This document shows positions 7,056-14,821 of a stretch of 20,126 bases of DNA, in pieces. This DNA comes from a virus, in IMG/VR virus record IMGVR_UViG_3300042465_002701, positions 1 through 20,126 of that record, one strand, 5' to 3'. The position numbers and the translations under genes were made by a program. The notes beneath the pieces were generated by a model. That model was not told where the DNA came from and did no database searches. It saw only the letters and a program-made list of their open reading frames with translations. How positions within the stretch are numbered: position 1 is the stretch's first letter; each line of letters starts with the position of its first letter.

Positions 7056-8039
7056 TTATCTATTTAGCAATTTATTAAGAATTCTTGAATAATCTTGCCA
7101 AACGCTTTCCTTGCTGTATGCTTTATACAGAGGTTCTAGGGGTGCAGTACCATTTGCAATGATTTGCTTGATGCTACTATTTTCAATTAAAACACTAGGC
7201 TTTAAGTCCCAGTAGTTTCGCATCTGATGACTGCGTGTTACTGCAATAGGGCGCCCTGACGCTAATGCATAGTCTGGACTACTTGCTAGACCACATCCAT
7301 CTAGATAATCATAGAAGTAACAGTTAATCGTATTTTGCGCTAACAAGTTAATAATCTGCTGAGTGTCTAATAGATCATGTGTGATAATAACATCAATTCC
7401 TGGTTTTGTGATAATGCGTCTAACTTCTTCTGCTCTTGCAAGTGCATTACTTCCTTTACGTCCATGAACTTGATCTTCATAGAACCCAAAAGGAATGTGA
7501 AGTCTTAATGTTGCTTCATCAAATTCTTCTTGTACTTTGTGCGCTAGACTAGCAATGCCTTTGTGTGGTGGACCAAACCCTTGAAATCCTATGATTGGTT
7601 TCTCAGGCTCAACGTATGATACTGTTGGTTTTCCTGGAAGCAAACGATTTGTCGTAAACACATGTTGCGTTTCTTTCACGCTAGGATCATCTGCAATAAT
7701 GTATTCCCAACCATGATTGAATCTAGGTAAGTATGCATCTGCAATTGATTGGCTCATGTCATGCATGATTCGGATGTGTTTGATTTCAGGAAACACATGT
7801 CTCAAATGTGGATGATCCATCCATGGAGTTGTTCCTGGTGCGTAGTTATAAACGATTGCTTCAGGTCTGAAAGATAGAATTGCGTCTTCTACTGTAGGAA
7901 TATCGTCTGCGTAAACCATCTTAAAATTAAATTCTGGATGTTCAAGTAATACTTTTCCTGTAACATCACCCATCAATCCTATACCACAAGCGGCTTTAAA
8001 TCCTAAAGTCTGTGTGACAAATAATATAGTGCGTTTCAT
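7056..8039 (-). CDS. Glycosyltransferase-like protein (GT-B type, GT4-like)
   Basis: 327 residues from the ATG at 8039, which follows the upstream stop codon by one base and has GGA about 10 bases upstream. The N-terminal half has a Rossmann-like start (TILFVTQTLG) and the strand PEAIVYNYAPGT. The C-terminal half begins with IIGFQGFGPPHKG (149-161), like the GT-B linker before the nucleotide-binding domain. It contains NTINCYFYDYLDGCGLASSPDYALASGRPIAVTRS (236-270), with the small-residue and D/E-x-x-ALASG pattern by which GT4 enzymes bind a sugar nucleotide. The donor and acceptor are unknown. It is a clear paralogue of the protein at 9009-9935, sharing the same order of motifs and a similar C-terminus (IKQIIANGTAPLEPLY versus IKDIVAGGIEPFQEFY). 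It is the last gene of the glycan cassette. Confidence 0.75.
   Translation of the reverse strand: MKRTILFVTQTLGFKAACGIGLMGDVTGKVLLEHPEFNFKMVYADDIPTVEDAILSFRPEAIVYNYAPGTTPWMDHPHLRHVFPEIKHIRIMHDMSQSIADAYLPRFNHGWEYIIADDPSVKETQHVFTTNRLLPGKPTVSYVEPEKPIIGFQGFGPPHKGIASLAHKVQEEFDEATLRLHIPFGFYEDQVHGRKGSNALARAEEVRRIITKPGIDVIITHDLLDTQQIINLLAQNTINCYFYDYLDGCGLASSPDYALASGRPIAVTRSHQMRNYWDLKPSVLIENSSIKQIIANGTAPLEPLYKAYSKESVWQDYSRILNKLLNR
7060..7068 (-). promoter_or_regulatory. Late-promoter-like motif (GCTAAATAG)
   Basis: On the minus strand CTAAATA (7067-7061) resembles the T4-type late -10 element (TATAAATA; C-TAAATA variants occur in cyanophage-type relatives). It sits at the end of the sugar cassette, about 60 bases upstream of the start at 7001. 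This could allow late expression of that gene and the hydrolase. The motif is short, so this is tentative. Confidence 0.35.
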
Positions 8040-8040
8040 T

Positions 8041-9012
8041 TTATTGTTTTCCATTTTCAACATTAAAATTAATCCATCGATAGGTTTCTTTCAGTCCCTC
8101 TTTCAGATTTTGACTTGGGCGCCAATTTAATTTTTCTTCTATCAACTCATTGTTACTGTTACGTCCACGCACACCTGTTGGACCATCAATGTGTTTCTTG
8201 CGAATTGTTTTACCTGCAATTTGTGCAACAAGATCAACTGTATCATTAATGCTAATCATTTGATCTGCACCAATGTTAACTGGACCATGAAACGTTTCAC
8301 TGTTCATCAGGTGTCTAACACCTTCAATGCAATCATCAATGTATAGAAAACTTCTAGTCTGTTCACCATCACCCCAAATTTCAATTTCATCGCCATCATT
8401 CGCTTTTGCAATCTTTCTACAAACTGCGGCTGGAAACTTCTCTTTACCTCCGTCCCATGTACCATATGGACCAAAGATGTTATGAAATCTAGCAACTTTG
8501 TTTTGCATACCATGTTGACGATTGTATGCATGAAACAGTCTTTCAGAGAATAACTTCTCCCATCCATATTCAGAATCAGGATGTGCTGGATATGCACTTG
8601 ATTCTCTGCAATCAGGACTTATATTTGTTGATTGTAATTCTTCATTATACACACATGCACTACTACTGAAGAAAACTTTTTTGATGTTCATTTCTTTGCA
8701 TCTATGAAGAACATTCAAATTAATCGTTGCACTATTGTGCATTACATCTGCATCATAGAGATTTGTATTGATATAGCCTGCACCACCCATGTCGGCAGCC
8801 AATTGATACACTTCATCAAATTGTTGGTCAATAACTTTTCGTACTTCAGATTGTGAAGTTAAATCTGCAAGTTGAAAATCATCTGCGTGACTGTATTCAT
8901 GTTCATGTAGTTTTTTATCTGCACCACGAACCCAATAACCTTCTGATTTTAAACGCTTAACCATGTGGCCGCCAATGAAGCCACCTGCGCCCAGTACTAA
9001 TGCAGTTTTCAT
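8041..9012 (-). CDS. GDP-mannose 3,5-epimerase-like SDR sugar epimerase
   Basis: 323 residues, the usual length for extended short-chain dehydrogenases. GAGGFIGG (8-15) is the NAD-binding Gly motif; SSSAC (116-120) and Y149-x3-K153 form the active site. AADMGGAGYINTN, FHNIFGPYGTWDGGKEKFPAAVCRK (177-200) and GDGEQTRSFLYIDD are diagnostic for GDP-mannose 3,5-epimerase. C120 and K192 correspond to the Cys and Lys that act as acid/base in the plant enzyme. The reaction would be epimerisation at C3 and/or C5 of a GDP-linked mannose, or of the 4-keto product of the Gmd encoded upstream; the exact substrate is inferred. The start ATG overlaps the upstream stop by four bases (ATGA). Confidence 0.87.
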   Translation of the reverse strand: MKTALVLGAGGFIGGHMVKRLKSEGYWVRGADKKLHEHEYSHADDFQLADLTSQSEVRKVIDQQFDEVYQLAADMGGAGYINTNLYDADVMHNSATINLNVLHRCKEMNIKKVFFSSSACVYNEELQSTNISPDCRESSAYPAHPDSEYGWEKLFSERLFHAYNRQHGMQNKVARFHNIFGPYGTWDGGKEKFPAAVCRKIAKANDGDEIEIWGDGEQTRSFLYIDDCIEGVRHLMNSETFHGPVNIGADQMISINDTVDLVAQIAGKTIRKKHIDGPTGVRGRNSNNELIEEKLNWRPSQNLKEGLKETYRWINFNVENGKQ

Positions 9013-9935
9013 TTGTCTAATAACCCTTCGTACAATGTCAATAATTTATTTGGATTCCAAACATCATAGAATTCTTGAAATGGTTCAATTCCACCAGCAA
9101 CAATATCTTTGATTGAAGTTTTTGTCAAATCGTTGAAATCTCTTCTGGTGTGTGATAAGAATGTGGAATCATTAACGCCAAAAGGTTTCTTTGATGCTAA
9201 CGCACGATCTACTGATCCACTCACACCAGGAACATTTGGTGTCTTATACCAATACAGATTAATGTCGTTTTGATTCAACCAAGTAATCAAATCTTTCTTA
9301 TTGAAGAATTCTTGAGTTACATTAATTTGAACATTACTCTTAGCCAGTTTTCTACATGCTTCTTCTAATGAATTTGAAAGTCCACCGCTTGGATCAACGT
9401 AAGCACCATTTGATAGATGAAGATTTAGAATAACATCTTCGCTAAACTGTTCGTTTATTAAACCAATGATTTGTTCTAGATTCTTTGTTACGTTACTAAT
9501 ACCGCTTGTGCCAATCTTCAACACTTCATTAGCTTTTGAATATTGAATGTTGTCGTAATATGTGATCGGTGGCACACCAGCGTATTCATCACCCAAAGTT
9601 TCTTTTCTAGGGTCAGTGAAAATGTAAGAACTAACTCCAGTAAATTTATTAACATGTTCGTGTCCAACAATCGCTAGTTGTTTAGCATTTGTTGAATTTG
9701 CAATTGGTCTAGTGATGCCATTGTTTAACCAATTCAGCGTAGATGGATGATGATTGTATATAATAGCATATGGGTCTACAACTGATACTCTATCATTAAA
9801 TTCTTTATACGAATTTGTAGCTAAAAATTCAAACTCATAATTTTTAGACGTTTTTAAAATTTCATATACAGAATCTGCATACTGATAGATGCCACATTCT
9901 TTAGTCGCACCAGTTACTAAAATTACTTTTTTCAT
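9009..9935 (-). CDS. Glycosyltransferase-like protein, paralogue of the one at 7056-8039
   Basis: 308 residues. It opens with a Rossmann-like VILVTGATKECG, then PYAIIYNHHPSTLNWL (55-70), which matches PEAIVYNYAPGTTPWM in the paralogue. The motif VLKIGTSGIS marks the start of the second domain. NDINLYWYKTPNVPGVSGSVDRALASKKPFGVNDS (223-257) aligns with the sugar-nucleotide-binding region of the paralogue. Both domains of a GT-B fold are therefore present, though residues are diverged and the specificity cannot be read. It overlaps genes on both sides by four bases, so it is co-translated with the epimerase and the GT9-like gene. Transfer of the cassette's sugar to LPS, capsule or virion is inferred. 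Confidence 0.68.
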   Translation of the reverse strand: MKKVILVTGATKECGIYQYADSVYEILKTSKNYEFEFLATNSYKEFNDRVSVVDPYAIIYNHHPSTLNWLNNGITRPIANSTNAKQLAIVGHEHVNKFTGVSSYIFTDPRKETLGDEYAGVPPITYYDNIQYSKANEVLKIGTSGISNVTKNLEQIIGLINEQFSEDVILNLHLSNGAYVDPSGGLSNSLEEACRKLAKSNVQINVTQEFFNKKDLITWLNQNDINLYWYKTPNVPGVSGSVDRALASKKPFGVNDSTFLSHTRRDFNDLTKTSIKDIVAGGIEPFQEFYDVWNPNKLLTLYEGLLDK

Positions 9936-10852
9936 GTTATATGTTTTGTGGATTTTCTATCAGAAGAATATGCTGGTGTCAGAATTAAATCTGTTATGAT
10001 TCTAATTGCAACGTTATCATCTATTGTATCACTAAAATATGAGTTTGTCAAATAGTCACCCTCACCCATCAAACAATCTCTCATTCTGTGGCTGAAACAC
10101 ATGAATGTTTGTTCTGGATTGTTCATGTTTGATTTGGTGTGTGCGTATGTAAACGGACCACTATTCTTACCAATAATCAACTTTGCAAACTGACTGATAT
10201 AAGCAATCTGATTTAAATTGCCTGTTGGAGAACCAAATATCTTATCTGTACAACTTACATTCTTATTAGATATTCCAATGTCGTGCGTAATTAAAAATTC
10301 ATAGTCTGGAAAACTAGATGATATAGAGTCGATGATATTTTTCATATCACCCATGCTACTCTGTTCGCTTTGCTGAACACCATTGCAAATGAGAATCAAA
10401 TTCTTTGGAATGGTTAATCTCAAATATGAATTGCATTCTTTCAAATCAAAACGATACCAATCAATCTTTGGTAGATAGAAAAAGTAATCACCTTTCATTT
10501 CAATTTCTAATGCATTGAAAATTTCTTTCCACATCGTGTGAAGACAATGAAAATTAGCATGATCTTTTTCTGCTAAGTGTTTGCCAATCCAACAACCAAC
10601 CCAAGTGTTAATGTATAATGTATTGGGTTCAGTTTGTGAAACCGCTAAAGGCACAAAAGTGCCAATAGCAGGAATTTCGTTAAGTGTTACATGCTTACAA
10701 TTTAAATCCTCTACAATGTTTGGATGATTGTTGTGTGCATATAAGAATTCAACATTAGGAAAACGGCTAATGATATCACGAACATATTCTTTGTTTATGA
10801 AACAGTCGCCGTTTCTCCATTGATTGAAGAAAACGATCTTGGTGAAATTCAT
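9932..10852 (-). CDS. GT9/heptosyltransferase-like glycosyltransferase
   Basis: 306 residues. The N-terminus KIVFFNQWRNGDCFINKEYVRDII resembles the GT9 opening (G-D-x-x), here with Asn-Gly-Asp. The C-terminal half carries a strand-loop NLILICNGVQQSEQSS, where heptosyltransferases bind the nucleotide phosphate, and LIIGKNSGPFTYAHT (225-239). The latter corresponds to the S/N-D/N-SGP-x-H/A motif of the ADP-heptose:LPS family. It most likely transfers a sugar to a polysaccharide acceptor; a true heptose donor is not implied. It overlaps the methyltransferase upstream and the next gene downstream by four bases each. The relationship is distant, so another GT-B family is possible. Confidence 0.6.
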   Translation of the reverse strand: MNFTKIVFFNQWRNGDCFINKEYVRDIISRFPNVEFLYAHNNHPNIVEDLNCKHVTLNEIPAIGTFVPLAVSQTEPNTLYINTWVGCWIGKHLAEKDHANFHCLHTMWKEIFNALEIEMKGDYFFYLPKIDWYRFDLKECNSYLRLTIPKNLILICNGVQQSEQSSMGDMKNIIDSISSSFPDYEFLITHDIGISNKNVSCTDKIFGSPTGNLNQIAYISQFAKLIIGKNSGPFTYAHTKSNMNNPEQTFMCFSHRMRDCLMGEGDYLTNSYFSDTIDDNVAIRIITDLILTPAYSSDRKSTKHIT

Positions 10853-12072
10853 TTTGAAATAATTTCAAAGATTGGACATGGAACAATGAATGAACCACCC
10901 GCATCTAAGAATGCTTTTTCTCTTGTTTGGAATTCGCTAATGAAGTGCCATGGAAGAACCAAAGCATAGTCTGGATTTGCTTTACGCATTTCTTCTTCGC
11001 TGACAATTGGAATGTTTGTTCCAATTGTTTTATAACCAAACTTGTATGGGCTACGTTCTGCAATAGCATTGATGTGAGTACCATCTAAACCAAAGTATTG
11101 TAGCAACGTATTGCCTTTAGTACTTGCGCCATAACCATAGACACTCTTACCTGAAGACTTTGCTTCTTCAATAAATGTAAGAACATCGTTTCTCAAATCA
11201 TCAAGTCTAATTTTGAATGCGTCCCAAACTAAAGGACTTGAAATATCTAAAACATTATGCTCATAGTTTAGAATTGATTCTACACGATAATTACACACAT
11301 CACGCAAAGGAGAAGTTCCAAAACTTGTAATGTTTGCAGTATCTTTTTGGAAGTAAACTCTGAAGCTACCACCATTCGTATCATTCAAACTGCAATCGAC
11401 AAGATTAAATCCATGTTGAGAAAATAGCTTACTAATACTCTTCAAGTCATAGTAATAAACGTGTTCGTGACAAATGTTATCAAACGCTAATTGATTGACC
11501 ATCAAAGGTGTATAACTCATCTGAAGAACAGCAACGCCATCATCGTCAAGAATGTCATACATGTCTTGTACAAATGGATGTGGATTGTCTAAGTCATAGA
11601 ACATCGCAATGCAAGTAATAACTTTTGCTTTTTTATCTGCAAACTTTGTTTTCTTCCATGCATCTTTGCTGAAGTAATCTTGTACAACAGTAGCAACTTT
11701 ACTGCTTTCTGCATAGAATGAATCATCGCAAGGATCAATACCAACTTTGTTTAGATTGTCTGGTACTGCTTTCAATAGTGTGCCATCGTTACATGCAATG
11801 TCAAGCCAAATGTCATCGTCTTTCAACTTAACTCTGGATGTAATTTCTTTAACAATGCCTTGAAGTTCAAGTGTCATGCTAGTATTGATTGCACTACGAT
11901 ACCAATACTTACCCCACATTGTGGATGCTGGTGCAACATCTTTTAATCGTGGTGCGCCTAACTCTTCATCAAGATACAAATCAAGACTGTACTTTTTACG
12001 TCCAGCCATTTCGCTGTCATCTTTAATAAAGTCGCTTACATAGTGATCGCCAAGTTCAAGTAGTTTTTTCAT
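10849..12072 (-). CDS. SAM-dependent sugar C-methyltransferase (TylCIII/NovU type)
   Basis: 407 residues from the ATG at 12072, chosen for GAGGA five bases upstream. Three parts are visible. Residues ~1-60 are a shortened version of the N-terminal (Methyltransf_13-like) domain. Residues ~70-260 hold the SAM-binding Rossmann fold (IWLDIACNDGTLL, 88-100; GIDPC; ITCIAMFYDLDNP) and the family hallmark NICHEHVYYYDL with H202-E-H204. Residues ~290-407 are the C-terminal (Methyltransf_14-like) domain with VYGYGASTKGNTLL (311-324). Relatives add a methyl group to C3 of 4-keto-6-deoxy nucleotide sugars; Gmd, encoded upstream, makes such a 4-keto sugar as its GDP form. Unusually, the N-terminal zinc cysteines of the family are absent. 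Confidence 0.9.
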   Translation of the reverse strand: MKKLLELGDHYVSDFIKDDSEMAGRKKYSLDLYLDEELGAPRLKDVAPASTMWGKYWYRSAINTSMTLELQGIVKEITSRVKLKDDDIWLDIACNDGTLLKAVPDNLNKVGIDPCDDSFYAESSKVATVVQDYFSKDAWKKTKFADKKAKVITCIAMFYDLDNPHPFVQDMYDILDDDGVAVLQMSYTPLMVNQLAFDNICHEHVYYYDLKSISKLFSQHGFNLVDCSLNDTNGGSFRVYFQKDTANITSFGTSPLRDVCNYRVESILNYEHNVLDISSPLVWDAFKIRLDDLRNDVLTFIEEAKSSGKSVYGYGASTKGNTLLQYFGLDGTHINAIAERSPYKFGYKTIGTNIPIVSEEEMRKANPDYALVLPWHFISEFQTREKAFLDAGGSFIVPCPIFEIISK

Positions 12073-12073
12073 A

Positions 12074-12451
12074 TTATTCCTCATGTGATTTTTCTTCAAC
12101 TAATTCCGAATTACAAAGAACATTTATTTCTTTTTTGATTCGGCTTCGTTCATCGTTTGTTTTATATATCTTTCTTGCAACATCAATAAATGCTGATTCA
12201 AAAAAGTTAGTTTTTTCGTAATGTCTAATGTCTTCTTCAAGAAACCATAAACGCAAATTGATTTCCATCAATTGTTGTTGTTGTTCTAGCACATCTTTTT
12301 GTATTGTAACATATTCAGAAAGAGAAGTCAATGCATCATGTTCTTTTTGAACATTGATTAGTTTTTCTTTGTCTTTAATCTGAGTGAGTTTGATTTTCAG
12401 AATGGTAATCTTATCTACAAGTTCACCGACACTTACTGGTATATTAATCAT
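12074..12451 (-). CDS. DUF6165-like coiled-coil protein of sugar clusters
   Basis: 125 residues. The start INIPVSVGELVDKITILKIKL is the signature I associate with a family of unknown function, DUF6165. Members often lie beside LPS or nucleotide-sugar genes. The remainder is a long heptad-like helix region (~20-85, QKEHDALTSLSEYVTIQKDVLEQQQQLMEINLRLWFLEEDIRHYE) and a charged C-terminal helix, so it probably forms a coiled-coil dimer or scaffold. No catalytic residues are evident. Its ATG overlaps the upstream stop by four bases, and the methyltransferase begins directly after its stop. Function is unknown; support of surface-glycan synthesis is inferred from position only. Confidence 0.75.
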   Translation of the reverse strand: MINIPVSVGELVDKITILKIKLTQIKDKEKLINVQKEHDALTSLSEYVTIQKDVLEQQQQLMEINLRLWFLEEDIRHYEKTNFFESAFIDVARKIYKTNDERSRIKKEINVLCNSELVEEKSHEE

Positions 12452-13329
12452 TTTCTTTCAATGTCCTCTTCAATGCAATTTTCGCCATATTGAATTTCAA
12501 TAACTCTCAATGGTTCATCTGTTTCATTGCAGAGTTTGTGCCATTGTTCTTTATTAATATGTAGACTTTCAAATTTATTGTAAGTCCCAACTAAGTCCAT
12601 ATCAGTACCAGCATTTAGTGTGTAGACTGTAGCAGTACCTTCAGCAACAAACCAATGCTCGGCTCTGTCTTTGTGTTTTTGCATACTTAAACAAGTTTTA
12701 GCACCAACAGTTAATTCTTTTACTTTGATTTCTTTACCTTGTTCATGCAGTACTCTATAGTATCCCCATGCTCTGCTAGTCTTAGGTGCTTTCCACTCTT
12801 CAAGAATCCATGAAGATGAATTCATTTTGTTATCACCACCAACAGAGAATACAAATTCTAAGTTTTCTTTGTATTGTATATCATCAAGCAATCCCATTTC
12901 TGGAATGTTTTCTGCTGTTCTATCTCCACCATTTGCAAAAATGATCTTTGCGCCAGGAAATGTTTGAGTTGCTTGCTTGATTGCATTGATAGAATTATTT
13001 TCATCATCGTTAAATTCTATAACGTAATCTACCATCTCTAAATTCTTAATCAACTGAAAACGTTCATCCCAAGTATAGAACGAACGTCCTTTTTTTCTTT
13101 TCAACCAAGAATCAGAATTGATACCGACAACAAGTGTGTCGCCTAATGCTTTAGCCGATTTGAAGTATGCAAGATGCCCTGAGTGAAGTGGATCAAATCC
13201 ACCTGTCACTAGAACAACTCTTTTTTCTGGTGACTTAACTAAAACTCTAAAGTTTGGTGGTGCACCAAAGTCTCTAGCATAGACTGTCTTACCGCCATCT
13301 GGACTTTCATATATTTTAGGGGTTTCCAT
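12448..13329 (-). CDS. Fusion of a cytidylyltransferase-like domain and a ManC-type cupin
   Basis: 293 residues in two domains. Residues ~36-175 are a HIGH-type nucleotidyltransferase: GGFDPLHSGHL (43-53, with H49-S-G-H52), GINSDSWLKRKKGR, and NKMNSSSWILEEW (168-179) in the place of the ISTTxII motif of TagD/RfaE-type enzymes. These activate a small phosphorylated sugar or alcohol with CTP or ATP. Residues ~184-293 are a cupin like the C-terminal isomerase part of type II mannose-6-phosphate isomerase/GDP-mannose pyrophosphorylase: SRAWGYYRVL, VKELTVGAKTCLSMQKHKDRAEHW (Q217, H219, H225) and H264, probably binding metal. The usual ManC pyrophosphorylase domain is absent. The ATG has GAGGA nine bases upstream, inside the end of gmd (14-base overlap). 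Confidence 0.85.
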   Translation of the reverse strand: METPKIYESPDGGKTVYARDFGAPPNFRVLVKSPEKRVVLVTGGFDPLHSGHLAYFKSAKALGDTLVVGINSDSWLKRKKGRSFYTWDERFQLIKNLEMVDYVIEFNDDENNSINAIKQATQTFPGAKIIFANGGDRTAENIPEMGLLDDIQYKENLEFVFSVGGDNKMNSSSWILEEWKAPKTSRAWGYYRVLHEQGKEIKVKELTVGAKTCLSMQKHKDRAEHWFVAEGTATVYTLNAGTDMDLVGTYNKFESLHINKEQWHKLCNETDEPLRVIEIQYGENCIEEDIERK

Positions 13330-14347
13330 TTTTCTGAATCCTCATTTCACTTTCGCACATATCGAACACTAAATCTTTAAATGTATACTCTGGTGTCCAA
13401 CCCAAAACAGTTTTTGCTTTAGTGCAATCACCAAAAATTGTTGGCACTTCTGCTGGACGATAAAAATCTTTATTCACTTTGATGATAGTCTTGCCTGTAG
13501 ATTTATTGATACCAATTTCATCTAAACCTTCACCACGCCATTCAATTTCAAATCCAAGATATGTTGCAACATCATTACAGAAGTCTTTTACTGAATGCTC
13601 TTCACCACTAGAGATTGCATAGTCATCTGGTTTGTCTTGTTGCAGAATCAACCACATCGCACGAACGTAATCTTTAGCATGTCCCCAATCACGCCTTGCT
13701 GTTAGATTTCCTAGTTCTAGAATATCTTGCAAACCTAGATGAGTACGAATCATACCTAATACAATTTTACGTGTAACAAATTCAGGACCTCTACGTGGAC
13801 TTTCGTGATTAAACAAAATACCATTGCATGAGAATAGATTAAAACTCTCACGATAGTTTACTGTAATCCAATAGCCATACATCTTAGCAACAGCATAAGG
13901 TGAACGTGGATAGAATGGAGTGTTTTCTGTTTGTGGAGTTTCTTTTACCTTACCATACAACTCACTAGTTGATGCTTGATAAAATTTGACTTGCTTTTCT
14001 TTAGATAATCGTTTGACTGCTTCAAGCAATTTGAGTACGCCAATAGCGTTAACATCGCCAGTGTATGTTGGGCAATCATAACTTACGCTAACGTGACTTT
14101 GTGCGCCTAAGTTATAAACCTCATCTGGTCTTACTTTGAGCATAATACTTTCAAGATTAGCCGCATCTGTTAGATCGCTATAGTGAAATGTAATTTGGTC
14201 TTTGACATGGTTGATGTTTGCAGTATTGTTTCCTGTACTTGAACGGCGTACAAGACCATGCACATCATAACCTTTTTCAAGTAGAAGTTCTGCTAGATAA
14301 CTTCCGTCTTGTCCTGTAATACCCGTAATCAAGGCAGTTTTTTGCAT
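13316..14347 (-). CDS. gmd: GDP-mannose 4,6-dehydratase
   Basis: 343 residues, full length for Gmd. ALITGITGQDGSYLAELLLEKGY (5-27) is the NADP-binding motif. VRRSS (33-37) and NLGAQSHV are typical, T127-S-E129 and Y151-x3-K155 form the catalytic set, and NHESPRRGPEFVTRKI (180-195) binds GDP-mannose. The enzyme converts GDP-mannose to GDP-4-keto-6-deoxymannose, the branch point to fucose, rhamnose and C-methyl deoxy sugars. It is the first gene of the cassette; GDP-mannose itself must come from the host since no complete ManC is encoded here. An AGGA lies ten bases before the ATG. It begins just downstream of the tmRNA coding piece and may be transcribed in part by read-through from the tmRNA promoter. 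Confidence 0.95.
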   Translation of the reverse strand: MQKTALITGITGQDGSYLAELLLEKGYDVHGLVRRSSTGNNTANINHVKDQITFHYSDLTDAANLESIMLKVRPDEVYNLGAQSHVSVSYDCPTYTGDVNAIGVLKLLEAVKRLSKEKQVKFYQASTSELYGKVKETPQTENTPFYPRSPYAVAKMYGYWITVNYRESFNLFSCNGILFNHESPRRGPEFVTRKIVLGMIRTHLGLQDILELGNLTARRDWGHAKDYVRAMWLILQQDKPDDYAISSGEEHSVKDFCNDVATYLGFEIEWRGEGLDEIGINKSTGKTIIKVNKDFYRPAEVPTIFGDCTKAKTVLGWTPEYTFKDLVFDMCESEMRIQKNGNP

Positions 14348-14380
14348 ATTATTTCCATCCTATTTTATTATAAAATTAGT

Positions 14381-14411
14381 GACAGGTTATTCTGTTACGA
14401 GGAAACCTGTC
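14381..14411 (-). terminator. Hairpin at the end of the tmRNA coding piece (possible terminator or processing site)
   Basis: A perfect 8-bp stem, GACAGGTT (14411-14404) with AACCTGTC (14388-14381), closes a 15-base loop and is followed by ACTAATTTT. The T tract is weak, so termination would be partial. It may instead define the 3' end of the coding piece. Its 3' arm can also pair over seven bases with AACAGGT in the acceptor piece (14763-14757), so a switch between local and inter-piece pairing is possible. Confidence 0.5.
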
Positions 14412-14428
14412 GAAACCCTAGTCAGCGT

Positions 14429-14461
14429 TTAGGCTGCCAATGCGAAACGTGAGTCGTTTGC
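14429..14461 (-). other. tmRNA tag reading frame (ANDSRFALAA-stop)
   Basis: From the resume codon GCA (14461-14459) the frame reads ANDSRFALAA then TAA (14431-14429). The encoded tag starts with AND, the same as E. coli ANDENYALAA, and ends in ALAA, the signal read by ClpXP/ClpAP-type proteases. An A lies four bases before the resume codon, as in other tmRNAs. The stop sits in the loop of a small CAGC/GCTG hairpin. With the uncoded alanine brought by the charged tmRNA, the tag added to stalled proteins would be A-ANDSRFALAA. Confidence 0.9.
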
Positions 14462-14558
14462 GTTTACTTTTTTTTCTTCTTTTTACATCGTTGCTGATGT
14501 GCTGTCCACTCTGTTACTCTTTGCCCTGTCGAAACTATGCACCCCCATCAAAAATAAA

Positions 14559-14711
14559 TTATATAATTGTATTTTCTGAAACGACATATACTTTCCAATT
14601 AGGATGTTTTTTAGAAAGACTTTCCGCTTTAACGAGCAAATGTTCTTTACTCTTACTTACACCTTTTACGAAAGTTTTGTCGCCAGTTTTTACTACAATT
14701 TTATATTTCAT
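14559..14711 (-). CDS. 50-residue ORF inside the tmRNA intervening segment
   Basis: The ORF fills 153 of the 175 bases between the acceptor CCA and the coding-piece GGGGGTG, on the tmRNA strand. The ATG is 11 bases past the CCA and the TAA ends 12 bases before the coding piece. The product (MKYKIVVKTGDKTFVKGVSK...) is basic and alternates strand-like and helix-like stretches: KYKIVVKT, TFVKGV, then SKEHLLVKAESLSKKHPNW and KVYVVSENTII. This looks like a compact beta-beta-alpha-beta protein rather than random sequence. No good Shine-Dalgarno is present (only AAAAG upstream), so expression is uncertain. It would be carried on the piece of precursor RNA normally discarded in tmRNA processing. I recognise no family. 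Confidence 0.6.
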   Translation of the reverse strand: MKYKIVVKTGDKTFVKGVSKSKEHLLVKAESLSKKHPNWKVYVVSENTII

Positions 14712-14721
14712 AATTTACTTT

Positions 14722-14786
14722 TGGTGGAGGTGGGGGGATTCGCACCCCCGTCCAGAACCTGTTTCTCTTTGCTTCATACAGCAATA
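14722..14786 (-). ncRNA. tmRNA acceptor piece
   Basis: This piece probably starts near 14786, about seven bases after the -10 element, and ends at CCA (14722). It holds GGTTCTGGAC, close to the sequence before the T arm in proteobacterial tmRNAs. It also holds a T arm of five G-C pairs (14749-14745 with 14737-14733) around TGCGAAT, the acceptor strand CACCTCC, the discriminator A and an encoded CCA. The T loop has G where the conserved second T (position 55, pseudouridine) is expected. The size of about 65 bases fits acceptor pieces of known two-piece tmRNAs. Confidence 0.87.
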
Positions 14787-14792
14787 ACTAAC

Positions 14793-14821
14793 ATTATATC
14801 ATTATTTATGCAACTAGTCAA
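14793..14821 (-). promoter_or_regulatory. Near-consensus sigma-70 promoter of the tmRNA
   Basis: Minus strand: -35 TTGACT (14821-14816), a 17-base spacer, and -10 TATAAT (14798-14793) preceded by TG one base away (extended -10). Transcription should start near 14786, just before the acceptor piece. The -35 overlaps the stop codon of the nuclease gene. The spacer also contains CATAAATA (14808-14801), one base from the T4-type late -10 TATAAATA, so late phage transcription could start here too. Confidence 0.85.

Follow-up and report, generated by a model that had tools for sequence, protein, structure and literature searches.

Candidate small-protein genes in the intervening segments of permuted phage tmRNA genes

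Phages that encode tmRNA, including its circularly permuted, two-piece form, are well documented: a 2022 survey (PMC9004378) reports 402 phages with tmRNA, with two-piece molecules accounting for 53 of the 133 unique structures and marine or aquatic phages being the source of 50 of these 53. The same study describes two-piece ssrA in the OM43 phage Melnitz and the Pelagibacter phage Mosig, so the suggestion of an earlier, sequence-only reading of the locus considered here, that a permuted tmRNA in a virus may be undescribed, does not hold. Further isolates in which permuted tmRNAs were found are Xanthomonas phage Rb1, Synechococcus phages S-CAM1 and S-CAM3, Pseudomonas phage UF_RH6 and Caulobacter phage CcrSC. 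The permuted tmRNAs of S-CAM1 (L428:706-1020) and S-CAM3 are of the cyano-type and unannotated, as is the beta-type permuted tmRNA of UF_RH6, a phage of P. aeruginosa (L432:779-1199). The S-CAM1 “hypothetical protein” AOV57467.1 was rejected as an open reading frame (ORF) of the intervening segment (IVS), given that this CDS overlies the tmRNA itself and the IVS is only 4 nt long. The permuted phage tmRNA is therefore already known; what the present locus adds is a small protein gene under purifying selection between the two pieces.

The DNA analyzed here, hereafter the window, comprises 20,126 nt of the IMG/VR record IMGVR_UViG_3300042465_002701 and belongs to a T4-like freshwater phage; it contains a circularly permuted two-piece tmRNA gene (14376-14821, minus strand). 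Mosig, a T4-like marine phage with a permuted tmRNA in the slot exonuclease-tmRNA-gp33-gp59, resembles the window, but its IVS is 44 nt long and lacks a spanning ORF; for Melnitz, PMC9004378 gives a glutamine riboswitch and mentions no IVS gene. ARAGORN calls a single permuted tmRNA in the window (14338-14814, minus strand; tag ANDSRFALAA), and cmscan matches the Rfam model RF04321 (tmRNA_permuted) at 107.5 bits, above its gathering threshold of 47 (E=1.7e-20). The older beta_tmRNA model (RF01850) scores 74.6 bits against a gathering threshold of 84, which is passed by the ORF-bearing relatives L092 (149.7) and L095 (94.7). The window shares with both models the overall architecture, the tRNA-like domain and the tag resume region, and departs from them in this low RF01850 score and in its long coding IVS.

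Along the minus strand, a promoter is followed by the 3′ piece, the IVS and the 5′ piece with the tag frame. The putative sigma70-like promoter (14793..14821; TTGACT-17-TATAAT with an extended TG) matches the consensus at 11 of 12 positions, in agreement with the near-consensus promoter of the sequence-only reading; three promoter-like sites were found in the region compared with 1.9 expected from shuffles, and a T4 late promoter, TATAAATA, was looked for in the window and not found. The 3′ (acceptor) piece (14722..14786, its 5′ boundary approximate), delimited with ARAGORN and RF04321, includes the T arm and ends with the acceptor 3′ strand CACCUCC (14732-14726), A73 and an encoded CCA (14724-14722). 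The IVS occupies 14547..14721, and its excision would be expected from known permuted tmRNAs. The 5′ (coding) piece (14376..14546, its 3′ end approximate) starts with the acceptor 5′ strand GGGGGUG (14546-14540) and comprises the D domain UUUCGACAGG, the ARAGORN-predicted tag frame ANDSRFALAA-stop (14429..14461), which recurs unchanged or as near variants in relatives, and a terminal hairpin, GACAGGTT..AACCTGTC (14381..14411), identified by alignment and altered on both sides in the relative L042 (GATGGGTT..AACCCATC).

The acceptor stem forms across the IVS with all 7 base pairs, and its sole G-U pair is at 3-70. Among relatives, stem positions 4-6 co-vary (GGGGGUG/CACCUCC, GGGCUUG/CAAGUCC, GGGCCGG/CCGGUCC, GGGGAUG/CAUCUCC) while G3-U70 is constant; this comparison uses loci reached via the neighboring exonuclease protein rather than via RNA. 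Loci from the wide scans cannot serve here, as their search pattern presets U70-C-C together with a portion of the T arm. The acceptor piece is thus encoded first and on the same strand, and the T arm, the D-domain motif and a hydrophobic tag end in -AA are all in place, so that the call of a permuted two-piece tmRNA, with a single G-U at 3-70, an encoded A-CCA and a tag ending in ALAA-stop, is borne out in every sequence detail, and also by scans with ARAGORN and RF04321 of the kind that had been proposed as its check. The T loop of the window (14733-14749) and its relatives is the atypical TGCGAAT, in which position 55 is a G; elsewhere among phage tmRNAs, the T loop reads GGCAGTA or TGCAATT, and the usual TT is missing.

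The two ends of the IVS form a closing helix. The 5′ arm, AAAGTAAATT (14712..14721), abuts the start codon of the ORF described below and pairs at 10 of 10 positions with 14560-14551, that is, with the 3′ arm, AATTTATTTT (14551..14560), which overlaps the stop codon of the same ORF. Between the latter arm and the 5′ piece lies a conserved UGAU (14547..14550; TGAT in 83 of 104 arm pairs) that partly pairs with ACCA, and through ACCA/UGAU the predicted helix folds continuously with the acceptor stem (z = -5.1 vs shuffles). In a set of 104 distinct arm pairs from phages, standard pairs form at 92.5% of positions. This fraction does not exceed 70% in any of 500 shuffles of the partners or 61% in slid registers, and A-U, U-A, G-C and C-G are all seen at several positions, indicating covariation. 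Thauera and several alphaproteobacterial IVSs end likewise, the Thauera-type IVS sharing with the window both the closing helix and the UGAU end, and for this reason the helix appears to be general to permuted tmRNAs, with phages having filled its loop.

What almost fills the loop in the window is a predicted gene for a protein of 50 amino acids, MKYKIVVKTGDKTFVKGVSKSKEHLLVKAESLSKKHPNWKVYVVSENTII (14559..14711, minus strand), which starts 10 nt past CCA and stops 12 nt before the 5′ piece. The gap had been measured correctly as 175 nt (14721-14547), but the protein gene inside was missed. Relatives of this ORF were found at 27 loci in scans of IMG/VR, with identities of 58-94%; most of them sit in IVSs of permuted tmRNAs of both the alpha-model and the beta-model type, and the tmRNAs that host them carry five tags (ANDSRFALAA, ANDELYALAA, ANDNAFLMAA, ANDNKFALAA and ANDNFAPSGYALAA). 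The length is invariant at 50 codons, the start lies 10 nt after CCA, or some 19 nt after it in a single group of the alpha type, and the stop lies 12 nt ahead of the 5′ piece. Among 13 copies, dN/dS (Nei-Gojobori) is mostly 0.1-0.25 and third positions are the most variable; as judged by codon comparison, this pattern shows a protein gene under purifying selection. The product is basic (11 Lys, 4 acidic residues), and AlphaFold2 predicts a beta-beta-alpha-beta fold (pLDDT 90). Searches of PHROGs, Pfam and NCBIfam gave no significant family match, and fold searches gave no significant match either (best E 0.31 in PDB and 0.0095 in BFVD); the likeness to the antitoxin ATfaRel2 (TM 0.69, E 1.4) and the phage antitoxin Dmd (E about 4) is too weak and was discarded. 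No relatives were found in INPHARED or in GTDB genomes as searched.

The tmRNA and the 50-aa gene also occur apart from each other. In the close relatives L008-L025, the tmRNA is retained and the ORF is missing: compared with L008, the 3′ piece of the window is identical at 80/80 nt and the 5′ piece at 171/175, and the 88-nt IVS of L008 is unrelated. In the comparison with L010, BLAST homology stops at 14553 and restarts at 14716, at both IVS ends. These alignments show that loop content has been exchanged between constant tmRNA flanks. Conversely, L089/L090/L114, L094 and L091 carry the ORF with no intact tmRNA next to it. In L114, it stands alone among ordinary genes, with ATGA overlaps both upstream and downstream, the downstream neighbor resembling dCMP deaminase; in L094 and L091, an apparent worn remnant of the 3′ piece precedes the ORF and the 5′ piece is missing, and in L091/L116 a second, intact permuted tmRNA with the tag ANDNVFDVALAA and a 90-nt non-coding IVS lies 0.6 kb downstream (L116:5334-6506).

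The explanation that we consider fairly probable is that the locus holds two nested genes in one transcription unit, a permuted tmRNA and a protein gene in its loop, with the excised loop serving as a cargo slot for small genes. In the precursor, the acceptor stem would extend via ACCA/UGAU into the 10-bp helix of the IVS ends; by cleavage at G1 and behind CCA, host tRNA-processing enzymes would next release the two-piece tmRNA, which would be charged by the host AlaRS and would work with host SmpB to rescue ribosomes, and the 50-aa protein would be translated from either the precursor or the excised IVS. Across phages, the loop behaves like such a slot: the tmRNA flanks are nearly constant, and what lies between them is nothing, a structured RNA, a tRNA or a small ORF from any of about 20 unrelated families. 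The 50-aa protein itself most probably serves the phage as a small accessory protein that would be co-expressed with the tmRNA, and is not an obligate subunit of it, since it persists in phages and places from which the tmRNA is gone. Among the points against this explanation, the ORF of the window lacks a clear Shine-Dalgarno sequence and its start codon abuts a stable helix, several IVS ORFs extend into the 5′ piece, and the 50-aa family turns up in IVSs of the alpha as well as the beta type, which is more than free exchange of cargo alone might predict.

This recurrence, with fixed length and start position, also speaks for the strongest alternative, in which the 50-aa protein works in partnership with the tmRNA, by binding to it, to SmpB or to ribosomes or by controlling how the precursor is processed, and is encoded in the IVS for that reason; the strongly basic character of the protein points the same way. 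However, closely related phages (L008-L025) have the tmRNA and no ORF, the ORF survives lacking an adjacent intact tmRNA (in L091 next to a decayed 3′ piece), and many unrelated ORFs occupy the same slot. Because each gene is found without the other, cargo is favored over obligate partnership; a functional partnership is unlikely, although it keeps some probability on account of the spread of the family over both IVS types.

The cargo-slot explanation extends beyond the 50-aa family. A wider pattern scan yielded, among the matches listed, at least 186 permuted phage tmRNAs (186 kept of 192 ARAGORN entries, those with an IVS length of 0 being standard-form tmRNAs and removed) and at least 121 distinct IVSs of 20 nt or more. 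Among these matches, 28 distinct IVSs reach a length of 130 nt or more, and 25 of them are spanned (80% or more) by an ORF that starts within 30 nt of CCA, with shuffle p<0.05 for 23; between 80 and 130 nt, this is the case for 17 of 45 IVSs, 10 of them with p<0.05, and below about 80 nt the listed matches have no excess of ORFs over chance in shuffles. By blastp, the ORFs of the listed matches fall into about 20 unrelated families, of which the 50-aa protein is the most widespread and one matches PHROG 4098 (4e-11); many families, judged by eye, are single-pass membrane peptides of 23-41 residues. A grouping of the L148 ORF with that of L061 was discounted because the similarity comes only through translated 5′-piece sequence. 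In eight smaller families, pooled pN/pS comes to 0.42, a weaker signal than that of the 50-aa family, and taken singly the small families are weak. One loop holds an RNA gene: a tRNA-Arg(CCG) with an encoded CCA is predicted in the IVS of one close relative among the permuted tmRNAs (L026:6884-6957). Motifs of a potential ribosome-binding site (AAGG, AGGA, GGAG or GAGG within 16 nt of CCA) are present in 30 of 40 coding compared with 10 of 77 non-coding IVSs (p=3e-11, an optimistic value given that 13 short ORFs were admitted to the coding set on inspection by eye). In many families, the UGA of the conserved UGAU at the IVS end is the stop codon of the ORF.

In sampled bacteria, IVSs are mostly 4-90 nt long; those above 100 nt occur in three alphaproteobacterial genomes and consist of hairpins and repeats where inspected, and no convincing ORF was found in the bacterial IVSs sampled. 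A contig binned in an Alteromonadales MAG (L426, G003:C228) contains a phage-like permuted tmRNA with a 147-nt IVS and a 37-aa ORF, and may be misbinned phage. No description of IVS ORFs of this kind was found in the literature searched, a partial set that did not include the classic tmRNA papers.

A broader proposal, to which we give somewhat less than even chances, is that these loci form a general nested-gene platform, in which the excised segment would double as a small mRNA (or pre-tRNA) and one processing event would yield both a rescue RNA and the mRNA of a small protein for host takeover. In L040, L061, L060, L046, L175 and L254, the stop codon of the IVS ORF lies inside the mature 5′ piece. 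The cut at G1 would in such cases leave a non-stop message, in conflict with tmRNA maturation, and under the same proposal this message could become a substrate of the phage's own tmRNA.

The phage presumably supplies the RNA only and uses the SmpB of its host. SmpB (PF01668) was absent from all 14 phage records searched, namely the window and 13 relatives (more than 1.5 Mb in total, with several records in the range of 140-180 kb and a single one as long as 383 kb; some are fragments, so that single absences are weak), and bacterial controls were positive. With SmpB in none of the 14, the tmRNA would serve only the SmpB-dependent pathway of the host, and the idea of a rescue and tagging system supplied by the phage itself is unsupported as worded. 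The same absence would fit a diversion of the host system, with the phage tmRNA soaking up SmpB or replacing the host tag instead of rescuing ribosomes, and there is a precedent in the tag-less tmRNA of phage DS6A, which when expressed inhibits E. coli tmRNA (PMC11915505; PMC4131195). Divergent relatives nevertheless keep a full tag frame with an ALAA-type end together with G3-U70, which a sponge would not need, and diversion is accordingly rather improbable. Predicted tags of unusual length, about 30 aa (for example ANADTFDFSAMSFTGNTVRGAANESRFALAA), occur in the phage permuted tmRNAs of L184, L230, L166 and L238.

A leader peptide or chance frame, of which only the translation or nothing at all would matter, might be suspected in an IVS ORF that is short, abuts a helix and matches no protein family, but this reading is very hard to reconcile with purifying selection at the codon level, constant length, a stand-alone operonic copy and a range of identity from 94% to 58% with saturated synonymous sites.

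The surroundings of the locus are those of a phage: the window encodes T4-like gp32, gp59 and gp33 homologs, an exonuclease (phrog_298) and PhoH, and the search of other phage genomes that had been suggested recovered dozens of independent contigs of viruses in which the tmRNA adjoins the exonuclease. The T4-like genes and this conserved position indicate that the locus is not host DNA, a junction with which had been named as grounds for doubt. An assembly artefact or a host-derived gene, for which no favorable point was found, can be dismissed given the identical arrangement in many independent contigs, always among phage genes. By gp32 and exonuclease, the nearest named relatives are cyanophages with only about 50-55% identity, so there is no close isolate. 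Between the tmRNA and gp33 (7056-14347), the window carries a sugar-nucleotide/glycosylation cassette (GDP-mannose dehydratase, methyltransferase, cytidylyltransferase and others) that was not found at the corresponding place in the relative L109.

The IVSs of tmRNAs have been treated as waste, yet in many phages they carry protein genes apparently under selection, and standard annotation misses these genes and, often, the tmRNA as well. The loci provide a compact and testable case of two genes on one transcript that maturation would separate or set in conflict, and they are a source of uncharacterized small phage proteins encoded beside a ribosome-rescue RNA.

Two described systems also place a gene within a removed segment of tmRNA. 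In the archaeal-binned genome GCA-2688965, the IVS of a permuted tmRNA holds a gene for tRNA-Ala (PMC11915505); there, however, the nested gene is an RNA and a single case termed unique, whereas phage IVSs contain recurrent protein genes and, in L026, one tRNA. The second system consists of tmRNAs of the standard form with a self-splicing group I intron in the T loop that carries the gene of a LAGLIDADG homing endonuclease (PMC11915505), and a mobile intron or homing endonuclease was considered for the window. No group I intron was matched by Rfam at the locus, and no nuclease domain scored above the cut-off in the 50-aa ORF; with neither an intron nor a LAGLIDADG, HNH or GIY-YIG domain in the insert, this identity was rejected. 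Thus, although in both cases a protein gene lies within a tmRNA segment that is removed, the phage IVS genes differ from the intron-borne ones in that their tmRNAs are permuted and intron-free and in that they appear to encode tiny, unrelated proteins.
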